A DNA stretch of 64,000 nt from contig JABIFY010000020.1 of assembly GCA_018650465.1 (NCBI GenBank), positions 62,001 to 126,000 of the forward strand, in the 5' to 3' direction. Below are positions 12,545-41,599 of the stretch, one piece after another. This DNA is from Alphaproteobacteria bacterium. GTDB taxonomy: Bacteria; Pseudomonadota; Alphaproteobacteria; UBA2966. Each line of letters opens with the position of its first letter. The first letter of the stretch is position 1. Below the pieces are notes generated by a model. That model saw nothing but the letters and a program-made list of their open reading frames with translations. It had not been told where the DNA came from and ran no database searches. The position numbers and the translations under genes were made by a program.

Positions 12545-12979
12545 TTAGTCAACGACCCTGACGAAGCCACGCATATCCTCCTGATCCCAGTGGGGGCCGC
12601 ATAAATAGGGGTATTCGCCCGGTGTGATGAAGGGAAATTCCCACTGCTCTTCCGGGAAAAAACGCTCTGATTCAGCCTCGCCTGCCTGCTTTAACCAAAC
12701 ACTGTGGCTGGTGCGCTTGTCGACATTGACCCAGCGTACCGTTGTCCCTGGTTTGACGGTCACGTTTCGCGGACAGAAGGTGTATTTGTAAAGTTTAACG
12801 ATAACGACGCCGTCGTCTTTGGCATCCGGGTAAAGTTCCTGATAGCGCGCGTCGGCCTTGGCACAAATCTTTTTCTGTTGGGCTGATACCGTCTGGTCGC
12901 CCGCCTGCGCACCGCTCGCAGCTGTCAAAACAGCCGCGAGCGCTACGCAAATGATCTTCGACTTATTGTTTGACCACAT
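12545..12979 (-). CDS. Secreted cupredoxin (plastocyanin-like) copper protein
   Basis: 144 residues with a signal peptide (SGAQAGD at about 22-28). The type 1 copper ligands are clear: His92 in TSHSVW, Cys127 and His130 in LCGPHW, and Met136 in EDMRG. It overlaps the end of the multiheme cytochrome gene by 17 bp, so the two are made together. A small blue copper protein of this type could carry electrons from the multiheme cytochrome to a cytochrome cd1 nitrite reductase, as azurin and pseudoazurin do. The N-terminal 40 residues before the copper fold contain an extra Cys-containing segment (KKICAKADARY) of unknown role. Confidence 0.86.
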   Translation of the reverse strand: MWSNNKSKIICVALAAVLTAASGAQAGDQTVSAQQKKICAKADARYQELYPDAKDDGVVIVKLYKYTFCPRNVTVKPGTTVRWVNVDKRTSHSVWLKQAGEAESERFFPEEQWEFPFITPGEYPYLCGPHWDQEDMRGFVRVVD

Positions 12980-14741
12980 TGATCTCCGCTTCCGGATTGT
13001 CCAGTTCCAGCTTGTATTCAAGGGATACATGGTGGAACCGGGCAGAGGTGTAATCATCATGGATGGCAAAGCCCATGGTGTAGGTTTTGCCAGCTTCGAT
13101 GCTGACGCCACCGGGTTTGTCAGCCTTTAGAGGACGGGTAATGATCACTGTCCATTTTCCGTCTTTCAGGCTGCCAGAGGCGCTGATGTTGTCCGCATAT
13201 TTTAGCAATCTTTGAGCCAGAATTGAACCGCTTTCGGCTTTTTCTGATCCGCTTTTGTAACGCATCAGGTCCATGAAAGCACCTTGCTCACGCAGGGCGT
13301 CCATGTCGGCCTTGTCGATCAACTTGTCCCAGGCACCACGTGGCTTACCGTTTTTGCCTTTGTATTCAAACTCGCTGCGGCTGTCTGGCAAGTATTTGGT
13401 GACTCCGTCTTTTAAGTTGATTACCTCGCCCAAGGCACCGGCAGCTGCAAGCGCATCTGCTTTTGGTGCATCCGGCATGTAACGTGAATCGTGGTGACAG
13501 GTTGCCCAGCATCCTGTGAACCCGGCCATCTCGACGGCTTCATCATCAAACATTACGGCCAGTTTGATCTGGTTTTCCGGATCCATCTTGCCGCCATCTG
13601 CAAAAGGTACAGGTGTGTGTCCAACATCGGGCCATTCAAAGCGCAGGGTCAGGTTTTCACCGTCATGCTTTGCCTTGACGTCGACCGGGATGCTACCGCG
13701 TTTGCCGGGGATCGGCGTGGCTTCGGCTTTTTCACCAGAGACAATCTTGGCACCCATGTCGGCTTCTTCACCCTTGTGACATTCCTGACAGCGATCATTG
13801 ATCCGGCGAACGGCGCGTCCGCCACCATGATCCCGGCCATTGAAAACCCACTCGATGGAGGCCTGTCCTGGATAGAACAGTGTGATTTCTGTGCTCTTGA
13901 TTGCAGACCAATCACCACTGGATCCCGTGCCGGCACTGGCACCTCCTGAGGCAGCAGTTGCTGCGGCAGCTTGTTGCTTGGCGGCTTCTTCAGCTGCTTT
14001 CTTAGCTGCTTCAACGGCTTCAGCTTCGGCCTTTGCCTTTGCTTCGGCAGCAGCTTTTTCTGCGGCAGCCGCTGCCGCCGCTTTCGCAGCTTCTCTTTCA
14101 GCCTTGATGCGGGTTTCTTCAGCCTTGGACATCAGGCGGCGTTTGTCAGCCTTGCCATCATAGGGGTCATCATCTTCGTCCAGCAGTTTGTGCACTGGCC
14201 GGTGGGCGATGCCCTTGTGACAATCAATACAGGTCAGGTTCTCGGCGCGCGCAGCGATATGACGCTTTTGGGCGCGGCGCTTTTGCAGTGTGCTCGACAT
14301 CGCTTCCCAGGAGTGGCAGTTGCGGCACTCGCGACTATCAGATTCCTTCATGGCCTTCCAGACATTCTTTGCCAGGGTCAGGCGTTTGTCTTCAAATTTC
14401 TCGGGCGTGTCGATGGTGCCCAGGGCTTTGTGTAGCAATTCGTTTGAGGCCTGGATCTTGCGTGTGACCTTATGGACCCAAGGGTCGGGCACGTGGCAGT
14501 CAGAACAGGTGGCACGCACGCCGGTGCGGTTTTCGTAGTGGATGGTTTCCTTGTACTCGGCGTAGACGTTTTCTTCCATCTCGTGACAGGAAACACAGAA
14601 TTCCATTGTGTTGGTGGCTTCCATGGCGGTGTTGAAGCCACCCCAGAAGATGATACCGGCGAGACCGCCAACGATGAAGATTGCACCCCATGTGTAGCGT
14701 GCGGTTGGCTGCCAGAACCATTTGAGCAAACGTAAAATCAT
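12963..14741 (-). CDS. NapC/NirT-type tetraheme cytochrome fused to a second heme-binding domain
   Basis: 592 residues. A single N-terminal membrane helix (about 17-35) is followed by four CXXCH sites (49-53, 79-83, 139-143, 171-175), the NapC/NirT pattern for taking electrons from quinol and passing them to periplasmic reductases. Then comes a long Ala/Glu/Lys-rich segment (about 205-265), probably a helical spacer, and a C-terminal domain of about 310 residues. That domain has CQECH (318-322) and CWATCH (411-416), the last an unusual CX3CH site, and resembles ethylbenzene-dehydrogenase gamma-type heme folds. The cd1 gene precedes it on the same strand, with a terminator-like hairpin between. 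It probably feeds that nitrite reductase, directly or via the cupredoxin. Confidence 0.85.
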   Translation of the reverse strand: MILRLLKWFWQPTARYTWGAIFIVGGLAGIIFWGGFNTAMEATNTMEFCVSCHEMEENVYAEYKETIHYENRTGVRATCSDCHVPDPWVHKVTRKIQASNELLHKALGTIDTPEKFEDKRLTLAKNVWKAMKESDSRECRNCHSWEAMSSTLQKRRAQKRHIAARAENLTCIDCHKGIAHRPVHKLLDEDDDPYDGKADKRRLMSKAEETRIKAEREAAKAAAAAAAEKAAAEAKAKAEAEAVEAAKKAAEEAAKQQAAAATAASGGASAGTGSSGDWSAIKSTEITLFYPGQASIEWVFNGRDHGGGRAVRRINDRCQECHKGEEADMGAKIVSGEKAEATPIPGKRGSIPVDVKAKHDGENLTLRFEWPDVGHTPVPFADGGKMDPENQIKLAVMFDDEAVEMAGFTGCWATCHHDSRYMPDAPKADALAAAGALGEVINLKDGVTKYLPDSRSEFEYKGKNGKPRGAWDKLIDKADMDALREQGAFMDLMRYKSGSEKAESGSILAQRLLKYADNISASGSLKDGKWTVIITRPLKADKPGGVSIEAGKTYTMGFAIHDDYTSARFHHVSLEYKLELDNPEAEINVVKQ

Positions 14742-14820
14742 GTGTCCCTCTTTTCACCCCTGCAGGATGAAGTCTCCGGAAGTGTTGAAACGTAAAAATT
14801 CTAAACAAGTATTCACCTGG

Positions 14821-14851
14821 AAAAAGAGGTGGAAGCCATTGCCCCCACCTC
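14821..14851 (-). terminator. Rho-independent terminator after the first cd1 gene
   Basis: On the minus strand GAGGTGG, a short loop and CCACCTC are followed by TTTTT. It lies 24 bases after the stop codon of the cd1 gene and before the multiheme cytochrome gene, so transcription of the latter may depend on read-through or its own promoter. Confidence 0.7.
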
Positions 14852-14874
14852 TCAATTTCAGGTCAGTTCGACAT

Positions 14875-16485
14875 TTATGTCCGGTGATGTCCCCGGTTTG
14901 AAACATTGAACTTGCCGGTTGGTGTTTCCAGACCTTTGACCCGTGTCTTTTCTTTCAGGGTCTTTGTGTCATAGACAACCAGCTCGCCTTTCAGCCAGTT
15001 TTTCTTGCCACCACGAACCCAGACAGAGATCCAGAATTCTGAACCGTCTGCATTGAACTCGGTGTGGGTCGCAAGTGCCTTGTCAATTTCCGTCACCCGG
15101 ATCGTCTTGACGATCTTGCGTGTCTTCTTGTCCAGCACCTTGATAGATTGTTGAACTTCAGGATCAGGATGTTTGGTCTGATCGAAGATCACATAAGGTG
15201 AGTTCGGATGTGTCCGGATGAACAGGCCAGGGCCGTCAGATTCAACCGAATAACAAGTCTTCCAGGCTTGGTCAGGATGACCTTTGGGATCGTTGCCCCA
15301 CATGGTGACTTTGCCTTCACCCAAGTGGGTGGTACCGGCAACAGGGCCACATTTCGGATCAACCCAGTTGGCACCAGGACCCGGATGCGGTTTCTTGCCT
15401 GTGACAAGTGAACCAACAGCCTTACGGGTTTCGGTGTCGATGAATTCCATCCGGTTCGAGGCATTGGCCGCGATCTGGAAGTAACGCTGGGACGGATCAA
15501 AGAAGCCGTCATGCAGGAATTTGTGGGTGTTCTGCTGCTCGATGCGCAGATTGTCCAGATCGGAATAATCGCCCTGCCACATTTGACCCAGTTCCTTAAC
15601 AGCAACCATCCATGTCGGTGCGTTCGGTGTGTTGTAAATGGCGGCCACGCGGGCTTCGTTTACATAATCACCGTCGACATTGACGCCACGTGTGGAAACC
15701 ACCTTCAGGGGCTCCATGGTTTCGGCATCAAGGATGACGAAGTGAGGCGGCCAGTAACCACCACCGATGACGTATTTGTCTTTCCATTTCCCGTAGTGGG
15801 AAACAGCAACGTCACGGGCATCAGATGCGATCTGGGCTTCGGCCACCATTGCAGGCGGGTTCATCCACAAATCGATTTTGGTCATCTTGCCGTCGCGGCC
15901 CTGGGTAAACCAGAAGCGACCATCAGAAGATTCCTTCATCACGTGAACAGCATAACCGGAGTCAATCTTGACGACGATTTCTTTGGTGTCGCCATCGATA
16001 ACACCAATTTTGCCGGCATCACGCAGGATGACCATGAAGAAGTTTTTCCAATTGCGCTTGTGCATTGGCTTCGTGGGATAGTCTGCTGGCTTGATGTAGG
16101 TTTTCCAGCGCTTTTTCATTTCGGCAAGGCCGAGTTCTGCGGGCGGTGGTACGTCCATCTGGATGTAGGTGGCGAGGTTCTTGATCTGCTTTTTGCTAAA
16201 CAGATCATCGAAGTTGTTCATACCGCCTTCAGTACCGATCGTAATGATCTTCTCAAGGCGCTTCTGGCCAAGCTTTTTGGTCAGCTTGGGCTCCAGGCTT
16301 TTACCTGTCGCACCTTTCCGCAGTGCACCGTGACAACCGGCACAGCGCTGGAAATACAGCTGTTTGGACTCTTCAAAGTCCTTTTCTGATAGTGTCGGTT
16401 CGGCGGCCCTTGCGGTTCCAGCCGAGCCAACGAAGGTAAGTCCGGCCAAGGCCAGAGCAGTTACCATCAACGGGGTTTTCATCAT
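14875..16485 (-). CDS. nirS: Cytochrome cd1 nitrite reductase (second, divergent NirS)
   Basis: 536 residues with a signal peptide (TARAAEP at about 24-30). An N-terminal cytochrome c domain carries CAGCH (48-52), followed by the eight-bladed d1 propeller. The proximal d1 ligand His181 (GYAVHVM) and the two distal catalytic histidines His367 (KPHPGPGAN) and His387 (TTHLGE) are all present, so it should reduce nitrite to NO. It differs clearly from the other cd1 protein in this window: WVDPKCGPVAGTTH against [14 protein letters not shown], a longer propeller C-terminal part and a different tail. Downstream lie the NirT-type cytochrome and cupredoxin. An NNR box is about 320 bp upstream. Alternatively it is a specialised paralogue. 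Confidence 0.9.
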   Translation of the reverse strand: MMKTPLMVTALALAGLTFVGSAGTARAAEPTLSEKDFEESKQLYFQRCAGCHGALRKGATGKSLEPKLTKKLGQKRLEKIITIGTEGGMNNFDDLFSKKQIKNLATYIQMDVPPPAELGLAEMKKRWKTYIKPADYPTKPMHKRNWKNFFMVILRDAGKIGVIDGDTKEIVVKIDSGYAVHVMKESSDGRFWFTQGRDGKMTKIDLWMNPPAMVAEAQIASDARDVAVSHYGKWKDKYVIGGGYWPPHFVILDAETMEPLKVVSTRGVNVDGDYVNEARVAAIYNTPNAPTWMVAVKELGQMWQGDYSDLDNLRIEQQNTHKFLHDGFFDPSQRYFQIAANASNRMEFIDTETRKAVGSLVTGKKPHPGPGANWVDPKCGPVAGTTHLGEGKVTMWGNDPKGHPDQAWKTCYSVESDGPGLFIRTHPNSPYVIFDQTKHPDPEVQQSIKVLDKKTRKIVKTIRVTEIDKALATHTEFNADGSEFWISVWVRGGKKNWLKGELVVYDTKTLKEKTRVKGLETPTGKFNVSNRGHHRT

Positions 16486-16797
16486 GTGTTATCGCCTCCA
16501 AATGGCAGATATTTTGGTAACAGATTCGCCCAGAATTTTTCGCCAACCTCTGTGACACTTGTATGTCGACGGAATCGATGGTTTTGAGAATTCATTCTGA
16601 ACGTCGTGTGGTTGGGGCGTGGCAGTGCCGTCGGGCCACAGGACCGCAAAACCGAAAAACACTTCTGGTTTGTGGGTCGACTAGACGACATTCTTACCTC
16701 CATAGCCCCTCGCCAAACTGAATACCGGATCACGTTGAACCGGCTGTCGTTTGTACGGTTAATGAACGATGCGTAGCACGGCCTTTGAGGGCTAAAT

Positions 16798-16811
16798 TTG
16801 ACTATGGTCAA
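16798..16811. promoter_or_regulatory. NNR/Dnr box
   Basis: TTGACTATGGTCAA, a perfect TTGAC-N4-GTCAA site. It lies about 313 bases upstream of the divergent cd1 gene start and 283 upstream of the NirN-like gene. Confidence 0.7.
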
Positions 16812-16933
16812 GCGTCGATCTGCCGGTCGATATTGCCCTGACGAGGTGACGGGCCCGGGTCCAGATCGGGTACAAAAAACAGATGCTTGAAGTGAACTTT
16901 GTCCTTGAATATCATAAGGTTAATTACTTGACT

Positions 16934-16947
16934 TGATATAAGTCAAT
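16934..16947. promoter_or_regulatory. NNR/Dnr box
   Basis: TTGATATAAGTCAA, a perfect TTGAT-N4-GTCAA site about 146 bases before the start of the NirN-like gene, in an AT-rich promoter region. Confidence 0.72.
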
Positions 16948-17093
16948 TGTAAAAAACCTATATATTACGGATACTAGCGACCCATTGACGCAGTGCAGCA
17001 TTCAAGCTCGTATTAAGCTGTCCAGGCGTGATACCCAGAGAGAGAAATTACATCAATCCGGTCTCACTCAGACAATTGAACTGGCATCTGGAT

Positions 17094-18284
17094 ATGAAAT
17101 TGCGCGCATTCAAGGCCCTTATTCCTGTTTTGACGACCGCTTGGGTGCTGGCGGCGGTTGTGCCAGTGCAGGCTTTCGATACGATGGCCGAAATAGCCGG
17201 TTCCAGGGTCGAATACCAGCTTTCAAGCGAACCTCTGAACGAGCTTTCCGGTAATTTGGCGTTCGTTGCGCCGGATGGCCGTCACATTACGACGCGAAAC
17301 GCGGGTTCCCGGAAAACCGGCGTGATCAGGACGGCACACAAAATCAAGGGCAAGGTGATCACCTCTTTGGGCGGGCGCTATTTATTTGCGCTCTCGGATG
17401 ACGGCTGGATCAGCAAGTTTGACCTGGCATTTGCGCAGCTTGTTGCAAAGATCCGTGTCGGTCAAAAATCCAGCAATATTGCGATCTCTGCCGAAGGCAA
17501 ATGGTTGCTGGCAGGCAATCTAAAGCCGCACACACTTGTGGTTCTGGACACCAGGAACTTGCGGCCCTTCAAGATCATCGCTACCAGCGATGGCAAGGGC
17601 AAAAGTTCTGCTGTCCGCGCCGTCTATGCGTCACCTGCCCGTCAGGCTTTCATCGTGGCCCTGAAGGATCTTCCACAAATATGGGAGCTTTCATGGGACC
17701 CGGAAGCGGCCCCGGTTTATGGCAGTTTTGTCCACAGTTTCAGGGTAGGTCATGTTGAGGGTGTTGTGGTTGAAGACCAGCCCTTCGCCCGTCGCCGCCT
17801 CGATCTGAAGATAAACCTGCACGACCTGATCCTGGACCCAGCCGGGGCCGAGGTCATTGGAAGAGTGAGTGGAAGTGCCGCGAGTGTTGTCTATAATCTG
17901 GACGCCCGCCGCAAGGTCGCTGATCTGAATTTCAAGGATACCCCGCATTTTGGTGCCGGGCGGATATGGCAAATTGATGAACGCGTTTTATTGGCTGTGC
18001 CGCACCTTGACCAGCCCATGGTCACTATCATTGACTCGGAAAACTGGAAAACTGTCCGGCAAATAAAGACGGCCGGACCCGGCTATTTTCTGCCCCAGGG
18101 CATAAGCGACAAAGATCTCCGGTTCAGAATTTTGTCTGGCCCGGCAAAAAGCACAATCCAGATGATTGGTAAACGGTCCCTGGAAATTACCGGGACAAAC
18201 AACCCCTCAGCAGTAAACTCACTGGCAAGTGGAATTCCCGCGGCCGTGCCACTGGTCGATGGCCTGATCATCCATGCGGACTGA
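17094..18284 (+). CDS. NirN-like heme d1 propeller protein lacking the cytochrome c domain
   Basis: 396 residues from the ATG that begins a signal peptide (MKLRAFKAL, hydrophobic core, VPVQAF). There is no CXXCH. The body aligns by eye with the d1 propeller of NirN: DGWISKFDL against DGWVSKYDL, GNLKPHTLVVLDTRNLRPFKII against GNTLPHTLVALSAETLRPIKVI, and a pair of histidines in TPHFGAGRIW and AVPHLDQPM like the distal pair in NirN. The last blade looks truncated, since the conserved PSGKYNVWN ending is missing. It probably binds heme d1 or a precursor in the periplasm, acting as a carrier or assembly factor. It may instead be a decaying duplicate. NNR box upstream. Confidence 0.75.
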   Translation: MKLRAFKALIPVLTTAWVLAAVVPVQAFDTMAEIAGSRVEYQLSSEPLNELSGNLAFVAPDGRHITTRNAGSRKTGVIRTAHKIKGKVITSLGGRYLFALSDDGWISKFDLAFAQLVAKIRVGQKSSNIAISAEGKWLLAGNLKPHTLVVLDTRNLRPFKIIATSDGKGKSSAVRAVYASPARQAFIVALKDLPQIWELSWDPEAAPVYGSFVHSFRVGHVEGVVVEDQPFARRRLDLKINLHDLILDPAGAEVIGRVSGSAASVVYNLDARRKVADLNFKDTPHFGAGRIWQIDERVLLAVPHLDQPMVTIIDSENWKTVRQIKTAGPGYFLPQGISDKDLRFRILSGPAKSTIQMIGKRSLEITGTNNPSAVNSLASGIPAAVPLVDGLIIHAD

Positions 18285-20140: not shown

Positions 20141-20154
20141 TTGACCTGCGTCAA
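20141..20154. promoter_or_regulatory. NNR/Dnr box
   Basis: TTGACCTGCGTCAA, identical to the box at 32411. It sits 92 bases before the ATG of the small membrane protein gene and immediately upstream of mmcB on the other strand. Confidence 0.7.
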
Positions 20155-32410: not shown

Positions 32411-32424
32411 TTGACCTGCGTCAA
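32411..32424. promoter_or_regulatory. NNR/Dnr box, nirI-nirS promoter region
   Basis: TTGACCTGCGTCAA, perfect consensus, 80 bases before nirI and 142 before nirS. Its centre is 41 bp from that of the second box. Confidence 0.75.
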
Positions 32425-32487: not shown

Positions 32488-34314
<1,827 letters not shown>

Positions 34315-35252: not shown

Positions 35253-35574
35253 ACGCGTTGCCCTCGCTTCGTTTCTGGCCGTCTTTATCGCGACGGCTGG
35301 TGGAGTTGCTGCTACGGCCCCGCTGGATACCAAACGGCAAACGGAACTGGCTGTATTGCTGGAACAGGATTGTGGTTCCTGCCATGGCCTGACCCGCAGG
35401 GGCGGCCTGGGCTCAGCTTTGCTGCCTGACAACATTGCCCATTTCACCGACGACGCCCTTGTGGATATCATCCTGGACGGCGTGCCGGGCACACCCATGC
35501 CGCCCTGGCGGCGGTTTTTAAACCGGGCCGAAGCTTCCTGGATTGTTGAGCGTCTACGCCGCGGAGCCGACTGA
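35227..35574 (+). CDS. nirC: NirC-type monoheme cytochrome c
   Basis: 115 residues with a signal peptide (ending about AAT-AP at 30), CGSCH at 49-53 and a possible axial Met in GTPMPPW. Small soluble NirC cytochromes are encoded in many nir operons and can donate electrons to NirS and are needed for its activation or maturation. Starts inside nirE and overlaps nirF by one base, so translation is coupled through these three genes. Confidence 0.88.
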   Translation: MMSWSQPSKRVALASFLAVFIATAGGVAATAPLDTKRQTELAVLLEQDCGSCHGLTRRGGLGSALLPDNIAHFTDDALVDIILDGVPGTPMPPWRRFLNRAEASWIVERLRRGAD

Positions 35575-36740
35575 TGACATGGAACAAATTGATTGTCGCG
35601 ATTGCTCTGCTGACCCTGTCTGCCTGTGCTCAAATTCGGGCCACGGGTGACTTGGGCCTGATTATCGAACGCGGCACTGGCAGCCTGCAAATCATTGAAA
35701 CGACAACCCGAACATCGCTGGCCAGAGTGACCGGGCTTGGCGATCTCTCGCATGCTTCGGCGGTCTATTCCCGTGATGAAAGATATGCTTACATCTTTGG
35801 TCGCGACGGGGGCCTGACCAAGGTTGATATGCTGGGTCAAAAAATCGTCGCTCGTACCTTGCAGGCCGGAAATTCCATCGGCGGAGCCATTTCGCAGGAC
35901 GGCAAACTGGTCGCCGTCTCCAATTACAAGCCGGGCGGTGTGCGGATATTTGATGCCGATACCCTTGAGCCCGTTGCAGATATTCCGGCCATTGGTGCCG
36001 ATGGGGAGCGATCCAAAACAGTGGGCCTTGTGGATGCGCCGGGTCAACGCTTTGTGTTCTCGCTGTATGATGCCGGAGAAACCTGGATCGTGGATATGAG
36101 TAACCGCGACAAGCCTGCCATTACCAAATTACGCGATGTGGGCAAGCTGCCCTATGACGGCCTGATCACGCCGGACGGGCGCTGGTATATTGCCGGTTTG
36201 TTTGGCGAAGATGGTATGGCCATGGTTGATCTGTGGCAGTCAGATTATGCTGTACGCCGAATTCTGGATGGCTACGGCCGTGGTGAAAAAGCCATGCCGG
36301 TTTACAAGATGCCACATCTGGAAGGTTGGGCCATGGCCGATGGTCATGCCTTTATGCCAGCCATTGGACACCACGAAGTTCTGGTGGCCAAAGAAGGTTC
36401 CTGGAAAGAAGTCGACCGCATCGCCGTGCACGGCCAGCCTGTGTTTGTTATGGCCCGCCCGGATGGTCGCCAGATTTGGGTAAACTTTGCCTTCCCCGAT
36501 AATGACACCATTCAGGTTATTGACGTGCCGACGCGCCAGATTATCAAAACCCTGAAACCAGGCCCTGCCGTATTGCACATGGAATTCACCCCGCGCGGTG
36601 AAGAGGTCTGGCTGTCGGTGCGCGATGATAACCGGGTGATCATTTATGACACCGCGACCTTCCAGGAAAAAGGCCGACTGCCTGTGCAAAAACCGTCGGG
36701 TATTTTCTTCACAGCCCGTGCCCACCGCATTGGATTGTGA
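35574..36740 (+). CDS. nirF: NirF, heme d1 biosynthesis propeller lipoprotein
   Basis: 388 residues. The signal ends in LTLSACAQ, a lipobox, so it is a periplasmic lipoprotein. The rest is a propeller like the d1 domain of NirS but without heme c; DLSHASAVYSRDERYAYIFGRDGGLTKVD and MEFTPRGEEVWLSVRDDNRVIIYD are typical. NirF acts late in d1 synthesis, converting the didecarboxysiroheme-derived precursor to dihydro-heme d1. Its stop lies 7 bp before the nirDL start. Confidence 0.92.
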   Translation: MTWNKLIVAIALLTLSACAQIRATGDLGLIIERGTGSLQIIETTTRTSLARVTGLGDLSHASAVYSRDERYAYIFGRDGGLTKVDMLGQKIVARTLQAGNSIGGAISQDGKLVAVSNYKPGGVRIFDADTLEPVADIPAIGADGERSKTVGLVDAPGQRFVFSLYDAGETWIVDMSNRDKPAITKLRDVGKLPYDGLITPDGRWYIAGLFGEDGMAMVDLWQSDYAVRRILDGYGRGEKAMPVYKMPHLEGWAMADGHAFMPAIGHHEVLVAKEGSWKEVDRIAVHGQPVFVMARPDGRQIWVNFAFPDNDTIQVIDVPTRQIIKTLKPGPAVLHMEFTPRGEEVWLSVRDDNRVIIYDTATFQEKGRLPVQKPSGIFFTARAHRIGL

Positions 36741-40042: not shown

Positions 40043-41599
40043 ATGTTGAAAGTCCTCACTTTTGCCTTGCTGGTCACAACGGGTTTGTTCGCGGCTGAAT
40101 CTGCCGCCTTGGCCAGTGACAACGTAATCTACCAAAAACATTGCGCCAGTTGCCATGGTGCGGACCGCCTCGGTGGAAGTGGCCCGGCCTTGTTGCCAGA
40201 AAACCTGCGTCGACTGCGCAAGAACAAGGCGGACGGCGTCATCGCTGATGGCAGGCCTGCCTCGCAAATGCCGGCTTTTGGCAAGACACTGACATCGGCA
40301 GAAATCGCTGATTTGGTGAAACTGATCTACACACCCCTGAAGGCCGTACCGGTCTGGGGCATGGCCGAGGTATCCGCCAGCCACATTGAACATGTGGCCA
40401 TGGCTGCGCTGCCCGCCAAGCCGCCTTTCAGCGCAGATCCTTTAAATCTGTTCACAGTTGTCGAAACAGGGGACCATCATGTGACGATCCTTGATGGCGA
40501 CAAGTTCGAACCTCTCGCCCGCTTCGCCACCCGCTTTGCGGTGCATGGCGGAGCCAAATATTCTCCGGACGGTCGTTTCATGTATCTGGCCTCGCGCGAT
40601 GGCTGGGTCTCCAAATATGATCTCTATAGTTTGCAGGTCGTTTCTGAAATTCGCGCCGGAATCAACACGCGTAATGTAGCCGTGTCCAGTGACGGCAAAT
40701 TCCTGATGGTGGGCAATACCCTGCCCCATACCCTGGTGGCCTTGTCAGCGGAAACGCTGCGGCCTATCAAAGTCATTGATGTCAAGGACAAGCACGGCGT
40801 GTCGTCGCGTGTCAGTGCGGTCTACAATGCGCCGCCGCGCAACAGCTTTGTGGCTGCTTTACGCGATATACCGGAAATATGGGAAATCTCCTACGACCCG
40901 AAAGTGAAAATCTATAAGGGTCTGGTTCATACCTACAATGAAGATAATCCGGAAGGTATTGCTGAAAAAGGCCCCTTCCCTGTACGTCAGATTGTGTTGG
41001 ATGATTACCTCGACGATTTCTTTTTTGATCTCGATTACCGCAACCTGATCGGGGCAGCCCGCAACGCCAAAAATGGCCAGGTCGTGAATATGAATGTGGG
41101 CCGCAAAATTGCCGATATTGACCTCGCCGGTATGCCCCATCTGGGGTCTGGCATCACCTGGAATTACCAGGGCAAACCTGTGTTGGCCACGCCGCACCTG
41201 AAGGGTGGGCAGGTCAGTGTGATCGACATGCAAAACTGGTCGACGGTGAAAATCATTGAAACCAAGGGGCCAGGCTTTTTCATGCGTAGCCACAAAAACA
41301 CACCCTATGCATGGGTCGATGTGTTCTTTGGCCCTAACAAGGACCTGATGCATATCATCAACAAACGCACTCTGGAAATCGTCAAAACCATCCGCCCCGT
41401 GCCCGGCAAAACGGCCGCTCACATCGAATTTGACCGCGATGGCAGCCACGCCATTCTCAGTATCTGGGACCAGGACGGTGCCATCATTGTCTATGACGCC
41501 AAGACTTTGGAAGAAGTCAAACGCCTGCCCATGAAAAAACCGTCGGGCAAATATAATGTCTGGAACAAGATCAACTACGCCGCCGGGACCAGTCATTAG
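40043..41599 (+). CDS. nirN: NirN, d1 dehydrogenase with heme c and d1 propeller domains
   Basis: 518 residues with a signal peptide and heme c site CASCH (34-38), then a cd1-like propeller. A proximal-type His is in RFAVHGGAKYSPDGR and a pair of His in GMPHLGSGITW and ATPHLKGG. NirN catalyses the last step of heme d1 synthesis (dehydrogenation of dihydro-heme d1) and passes it to NirS. It is the last gene in the nir operon, 4 bp after nirJ. A shorter heme-c-less relative is at 17-18.3 kb. Confidence 0.92.
   Translation: MLKVLTFALLVTTGLFAAESAALASDNVIYQKHCASCHGADRLGGSGPALLPENLRRLRKNKADGVIADGRPASQMPAFGKTLTSAEIADLVKLIYTPLKAVPVWGMAEVSASHIEHVAMAALPAKPPFSADPLNLFTVVETGDHHVTILDGDKFEPLARFATRFAVHGGAKYSPDGRFMYLASRDGWVSKYDLYSLQVVSEIRAGINTRNVAVSSDGKFLMVGNTLPHTLVALSAETLRPIKVIDVKDKHGVSSRVSAVYNAPPRNSFVAALRDIPEIWEISYDPKVKIYKGLVHTYNEDNPEGIAEKGPFPVRQIVLDDYLDDFFFDLDYRNLIGAARNAKNGQVVNMNVGRKIADIDLAGMPHLGSGITWNYQGKPVLATPHLKGGQVSVIDMQNWSTVKIIETKGPGFFMRSHKNTPYAWVDVFFGPNKDLMHIINKRTLEIVKTIRPVPGKTAAHIEFDRDGSHAILSIWDQDGAIIVYDAKTLEEVKRLPMKKPSGKYNVWNKINYAAGTSH

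Follow-up and report, generated by a model that had tools for sequence, protein, structure and literature searches.

The closest described systems are NirN, a dihydro-heme d1 dehydrogenase, the heme d1 biosynthesis propeller NirF, and NirS, the cytochrome cd1 nitrite reductase. In NirS, His182 is the fifth ligand of the iron, Arg156, Arg198 and Arg372 hold the side chains and His327 and His369 serve catalysis; in NirN and NirF the histidine corresponding to His182 coordinates the iron (PMC7278500). Dihydro-heme d1 is oxidised by NirN in the periplasm (PMC13168839), and maturation involves transient contacts among NirN, NirF and NirS (PMC3694632). The handover of heme d1 to cd1 nitrite reductases is still poorly understood. 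In the literature searched no description of a NirN without heme c was found, nor was any account of the maturation of two different cd1 enzymes in one cell.

The window, i.e. the whole stretch of 64,000 nucleotides that was analysed, contains a real gene on the forward strand which runs from an ATG at 17094 to a stop codon ending at 18284 and encodes a secreted NirN-type propeller of 396 residues, devoid of heme c and stripped of most residues of the d1 site. An in-frame GTG lies upstream at 17028; the signal peptide (MKLRAFKALIPVLTTAWVLAAVVPVQA, followed by F, recognised by eye) nonetheless starts from the ATG. Six matches to Pfam Cytochrom_D1 are present in the genome, in five genes, as the NirN gene holds two. 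The gene, its parts and the canonical genes are as follows.

17094-18284, + strand: NirN-derived heme-c-less d1 propeller, 396 aa (Pfam Cytochrom_D1, alignment, model)
17094-17174, + strand: signal peptide, 27 aa, ending VQA before F (AQA before F in the orthologue), read by eye
17346-17348, + strand: codon of Lys85, replacing the universal proximal heme d1 His (alignment)
17571-17951, + strand: hyperconserved core, aa 160-286, containing the NirN-specific insertion (aa 201-240) (comparison with orthologue)
17820-17822, + strand: codon of His243, aligned with NirS His327 (alignment)
17946-17948, + strand: codon of His285, aligned with NirS His369 and the PHLGSG His of NirN (alignment)
18207-18281, + strand: shortened C-terminus, aa 372-396, lacking NirN blade 7 and the closing PSGKYN strand (alignment, model)
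32530-34314: NirS (Cytochrom_D1 match)
35574-36740: NirF (Cytochrom_D1 match)
40043-41599: host NirN (Cytochrom_D1, two matches)

Membership in the Cytochrom_D1 propeller superfamily (PF02239) is evident from the profile score (143.7 bits, the gathering cut-off being 25.5; the match covers profile positions 28-312 of 368) and from the d1-type fold, while the NCBIfam profiles gave nothing above the reporting limit of E = 0.001. The initial annotation had described a NirN-like d1 propeller with its own signal peptide, without CXXCH and with a shortened end, and this description holds in each respect. NirN is the closest relative (35-47% identity); no CXXCH occurs in the reading frame and homology begins at the NirN linker, so the N-terminal heme c domain of the dehydrogenase is absent. 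At the other end both the PGKTAAHxEF segment and the PSGKYN motif are gone, and the missing C-terminus was looked for in another frame downstream and not found. The structural comparison with NirN and NirF suggested at that time has also been made. In an AlphaFold2 model built on 14 sequences, which leans on those of NirN (mean pLDDT 77.7, pTM 0.77, residues 372-396 below 50), the best PDB matches were the NirN structures 6RTE and 6RTD (TM 0.73-0.74, rmsd 2.9), followed by NirS and then NirF. By strand count the model has six four-stranded blades and a three-stranded N-terminal one, one blade and the closing strand fewer than an eight-bladed propeller, a count to be read with the same leaning towards NirN in mind; AlphaFold on the two orthologues alone, without NirN sequences, reached a pLDDT of 31. 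Since the host has a complete nirS-E-C-F-DL-G-H-J-N set at 32.5-41.6 kb, this protein is not needed for making heme d1.

The d1 site was followed in an alignment of 32 NirN sequences (from the same and other genomes) with NirS, the second cytochrome cd1 of the window (cd1b) and NirF. NirN has 104 positions with an invariance of 94% or more; the protein keeps 48 of them and has lost 56. The proximal ligand of the d1 iron, a histidine in all 32 NirN sequences as well as in NirS, cd1b and NirF, is Lys85 in both the protein and its orthologue. FFMRSH has lost both its Arg and its His, PGKTAAH its His, and the position of NirS Arg198 its Arg; the PGKTAAH His, together with the PSGKYN end, reportedly has a catalytic role described in the NirN structure paper. 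With Lys in place of the proximal ligand in each orthologue, and 56 near-invariant positions gone, normal binding or dehydrogenation of heme d1 is unlikely. A His pair had been noted before as kept from NirN: His243 and His285 are indeed present, but both are positions of the distal pocket, and since NirN has Asp (30 of 32) or Glu (2 of 32) at the former, His243 makes the site more like NirS and is not a motif kept from NirN. Frameshifts or loss of the d1 His ligands in orthologues had been named as arguing against the initial annotation; the two orthologues show no frameshift, and the key ligand is lost in both.

One alternative is altered binding of heme d1, dihydro-heme d1 or another tetrapyrrole, which the protein would carry to cd1b, with Lys85 or His82 as axial ligand and His243 and His285 on the distal side. 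The HKIKGK segment (aa 82-87) identical in both orthologues, the restored NirS distal pair, of which His243 is new relative to NirN, and the retained propeller fold speak for such binding, whereas the missing Arg (NirS R198), the loss of the Arg and His residues of FFMRSH and PGKTAAH, and the absence of one blade and the closing strand in a region modelled without confidence, make it unlikely. Loss of the proximal His, the carboxylate-binding Arg and the catalytic His weakens the earlier proposal of a heme d1 chaperone for the second cd1 enzyme, if chaperone is taken to mean a d1 carrier; the other half of that proposal, the link to cd1b, is supported by the common block and by similar modules elsewhere, both described below. 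Better suited to the data is a helper role for which canonical d1 binding is not required.

The gene is functional; constraint is tight in its core and looser towards the ends. Its sole close orthologue (record JABILA010000037.1 of the alphaproteobacterial MAG SI054_bin61, same genus, here G001) is 81% identical, and the dN/dS comparison of orthologues proposed earlier gave 0.17 over 391 codons (dN 0.109, dS 0.637). No stop or frameshift occurs in either copy; a neutral simulation expects about 8 stops per lineage, the probability of none being about 0.0005 per lineage. Purifying selection is strongest in the core, where dN/dS falls to 0.022 and 4 of 127 residues differ, against 71 of 264 elsewhere (Fisher p 1e-9); in host NirN the changes are not significantly skewed in this way (p 0.09). 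A pseudogene is rejected, as the frame is intact at dS 0.64 with a dN/dS of 0.17, and the earlier suggestion of a decaying copy is contradicted by this strong selection. That a NirN copy is nevertheless decaying while hitchhiking on the cd1b island is very unlikely: the long stem branch (2.04), the 56 lost positions, the variable ends (dN/dS 0.25 outside the core, 3-5 times that of cd1b) and the occurrence in two species only could be read so, but both frames have outlasted the expected stops, the core is almost unchanged and the last residues, PLVDGLIIHA, are conserved in the orthologue. Further orthologues were not found in viral contigs, genome_contigs gave G001 alone, a plasmid search returned ordinary NirN-like matches only (38.8% at best), and in about 780 sampled genomes the NirN matches have far longer frames.

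Descent from NirN is evident from the tree, in which the pair nests with NirN of G073 and G015 (supports 94/98 and 88/74; in a second tree 100/98 and 99/73). With a stem of 2.04 and tips of 0.16 and 0.08, the branch lengths describe what reads as a burst of change followed by constraint. A duplicate of the host's own NirN was considered and is weakly rejected by the tree, by the AU test of a clade with host NirN (p 0.046) and by segment 201-240, which is identical to G073 NirN at 28 of 40 positions and to host NirN at 12 of 38. A NirF-like protein was likewise set aside: NirF would have the proximal His in DLSHAS and a place in the nirF family, whereas here Lys85 stands instead and sequence and alignment are far closer to NirN; grouping with NirF is not rejected by the AU test (p 0.133), probably owing to the long branches. 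The same segment bears on a possible role as competitor or regulator of canonical NirN, in which the protein might, for instance, sit where NirN docks on NirF or NirS and so divide d1 between the two cd1 enzymes. Retention of the NirN-specific insertion with loss of catalysis, in a genome that holds canonical NirN and NirS, would suit such competition; however, mimicry of host NirN is not obvious because the insertion resembles that of G073 NirN instead, and this explanation is decidedly unlikely. Outside the genus, the cd1b most similar to that of the window is also found in G073 and G015 (81% and 76%), and in both it lies divergent from nirC-nirF, a position that in the genus of the window is filled by the propeller gene alone. 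From this we infer that the island once carried nirCF...N and kept only the NirN propeller. A source of the signal peptide in nirC or nirN of G073 and G015 was sought by comparison and gave no signal.

The gene is fixed in one 5.7-kb block with cd1b, a cytochrome fusion (NapC/EB_dh) and a cupredoxin.

14875-16485, - strand: second cytochrome cd1 (cd1b), 536 aa, with the proximal His, LHD His, PHPG His and PTGKFNV all present (Pfam, alignment, dN/dS 0.053)
12963-14741, - strand: NapC/NirT multiheme cytochrome fused to an ethylbenzene-dehydrogenase-type heme b domain (Pfam, NCBIfam)
12545-12979, - strand: cupredoxin, probable start 12979 (Pfam, NCBIfam)

All d1 ligands of cd1b are kept. Nucleotide homology to G001 covers exactly 12546-16510 and 16951-18278, from the cupredoxin through the propeller gene, and the flanks are unrelated. 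Synonymous divergence is 0.39-0.79 in the island and about 1.2-2.1 in the nir cluster and its neighbours, so exchange or movement of the island probably postdates the split of the genomes; low dS and unrelated flanks in two genomes mark 12546-18278 as a mobile or exchanged block. The NapC-EB_dh fusion after cd1b, whose NapC/NirT part is of the multiheme quinol dehydrogenase type, recurs, often with the cupredoxin, in at least 10 genomes (G015, G058, G073, G140, G346, G466, G604, G681, G683 and the own genus), and the pair looks like a dedicated electron chain for cd1. Might the propeller, then, take no part in d1 insertion and serve this chain as a structural or electron-transfer accessory, for instance as a scaffold linking cupredoxin to cd1b? 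Propellers of this type are always found with the module, on the same strand and close by in G058 and G140, but no redox centre of its own is predicted and most cd1/NapC-EB_dh modules are without such a propeller, which leaves an accessory of that kind rather unlikely.

In a profile search of 74 cd1-bearing genomes, heme-c-less NirN-like propellers were found in 4 in all, including the pair described here. The other two are:

G058, L026:7043-8182: heme-c-less NirN-like propeller, 379 aa (profile search)
G140, L078:3247-4437: heme-c-less NirN-like propeller, about 397 aa (profile search)

Both genomes also carry a normal NirN. The order is cd1, NapC-EB_dh, cupredoxin, propeller on one strand in G058, and NirS, propeller, cd1, NapC-EB_dh, cupredoxin, nirE-C-F-DL in G140. 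Like the protein of the window, these propellers are without heme c, poor in ligands (the proximal His and most other d1-site residues are missing) and adjoin the same module; unlike it, they have a full-length C-terminus, and that of G058 is about 24-26% identical to it. Of the histidines weighed above for changed d1 binding both propellers keep only that of FFMRSH, a further point against such binding. The two are 37% identical to each other and group apart on very long branches, probably as a separate lineage, although the AU test does not reject a single clade with the window protein (p 0.086), so shared context need not mean one function. All four propellers keep R183, F186, W197-E198, V213-H214, R217, F231 and R234-R235, among them the NirN-specific element (WE, VH..R, F..RR) absent from NirS and NirF. 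It can tentatively be proposed, as a possibility we would not favour, that ligand-poor NirN derivatives without heme c evolved recurrently as an accessory class for second cd1 enzymes on NapC-EB_dh/cupredoxin chains, and that in the lineage of the window an eight-bladed propeller lost a blade, closes differently and turned from heme enzyme into docking or assembly factor. In G129 (C33:41662-42593) a NirN-like match falls into two frames of 351 and 169 aa and may be a frameshifted NirN.

Perfect FNR/NNR-type sites (TTGAY-N4-RTCAA) were searched in the window and compared with 100 shuffles: six were found, at 16798, 16933, 20141, 20514, 32411 and 32452, against 0.42 expected, and none of the 100 shuffles reached six. 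Two concern the propeller gene.

16933-16946, no strand assigned: perfect FNR/NNR-type box TTGATATAAGTCAA, not conserved in the G001 orthologue (site search)
16798-16811, no strand assigned: second perfect FNR/NNR-type box TTGACTATGGTCAA, conserved in the orthologue (L019:9710) (site search)

The former is the NNR box reported initially; it is perfect and, by eye, its spacing fits a class II FNR-type promoter for the gene, but it is absent in G001, where the 16798 site alone is kept. Expression under denitrifying conditions is plausible from these sites. The region 16950-17050 just before the gene is strongly conserved between the two species (ACCTATATATNACGGATACT onwards) and includes a possible -10 element. 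The boxes at 20141-20154 and 32411-32424 are identical letter by letter (TTGACCTGCGTCAA), yet precede different gene clusters.

Anatomy, descent and selection have been demonstrated above. The function we infer, with a probability of about one half, is that of a NirN pseudoenzyme, a non-catalytic helper in the assembly or regulation of cd1b which acts via its retained NirN-specific surface. Docking is the most economical function for a protein without redox centre, with most d1-site residues lost and the NirN-specific surface kept and frozen, and the transient NirN-NirF-NirS contacts speak for it. Against it count the existence of only two close orthologues, the higher dN/dS outside the core and the cd1b-type enzymes of other genomes, such as G346, G604 and G681, that have no helper of this type. 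The protein would derive from nirN of a nirCF...N set once divergent from cd1b, whose redundant genes may have been lost because the host already had a complete nir set, with the NirN propeller alone retained. In the periplasm it would dock on cd1b, or on an assembly of cd1b, NirF and NirN, and could keep semi-apo cd1b open and loadable without itself oxidising dihydro-heme d1; alternatively, it might steer heme d1 from canonical NirN to cd1b and away from NirS. A selected NirN derivative incapable of NirN chemistry, beside a second cd1, would show docking or insertion by NirN-type propellers apart from their dehydrogenase role, and as a natural loss-of-catalysis variant it makes the proposed NirN-NirS-NirF maturation complex directly testable. 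Selection on such a stripped relative suggests that a heme enzyme was reused as a helper protein.

Among known systems NirN (PDB 6RTD/6RTE) is the nearest in sequence and fold, sharing the NirN-specific insertion with WE, VH and RR and the His of PH(L/F)G(S/A)G; the protein differs from it in the missing heme c domain, the Lys in place of the proximal His, the loss of the last blade with PSGKYN and of the positions Arg127, Arg334, His336 and His384. NirF (PDB 6TV2) is similar in being a single periplasmic d1-type propeller without heme c, but host NirF matches at 39 bits only, NirF keeps the proximal His, and the protein of the window has a signal peptide that is not lipobox-like and an insertion that NirF lacks. 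With NirS it shares the propeller fold and the histidines at the His327 and His369 positions; unlike NirS, it has neither heme c nor an equivalent of His182 or Arg198, and identity in the structural match is about 19%.
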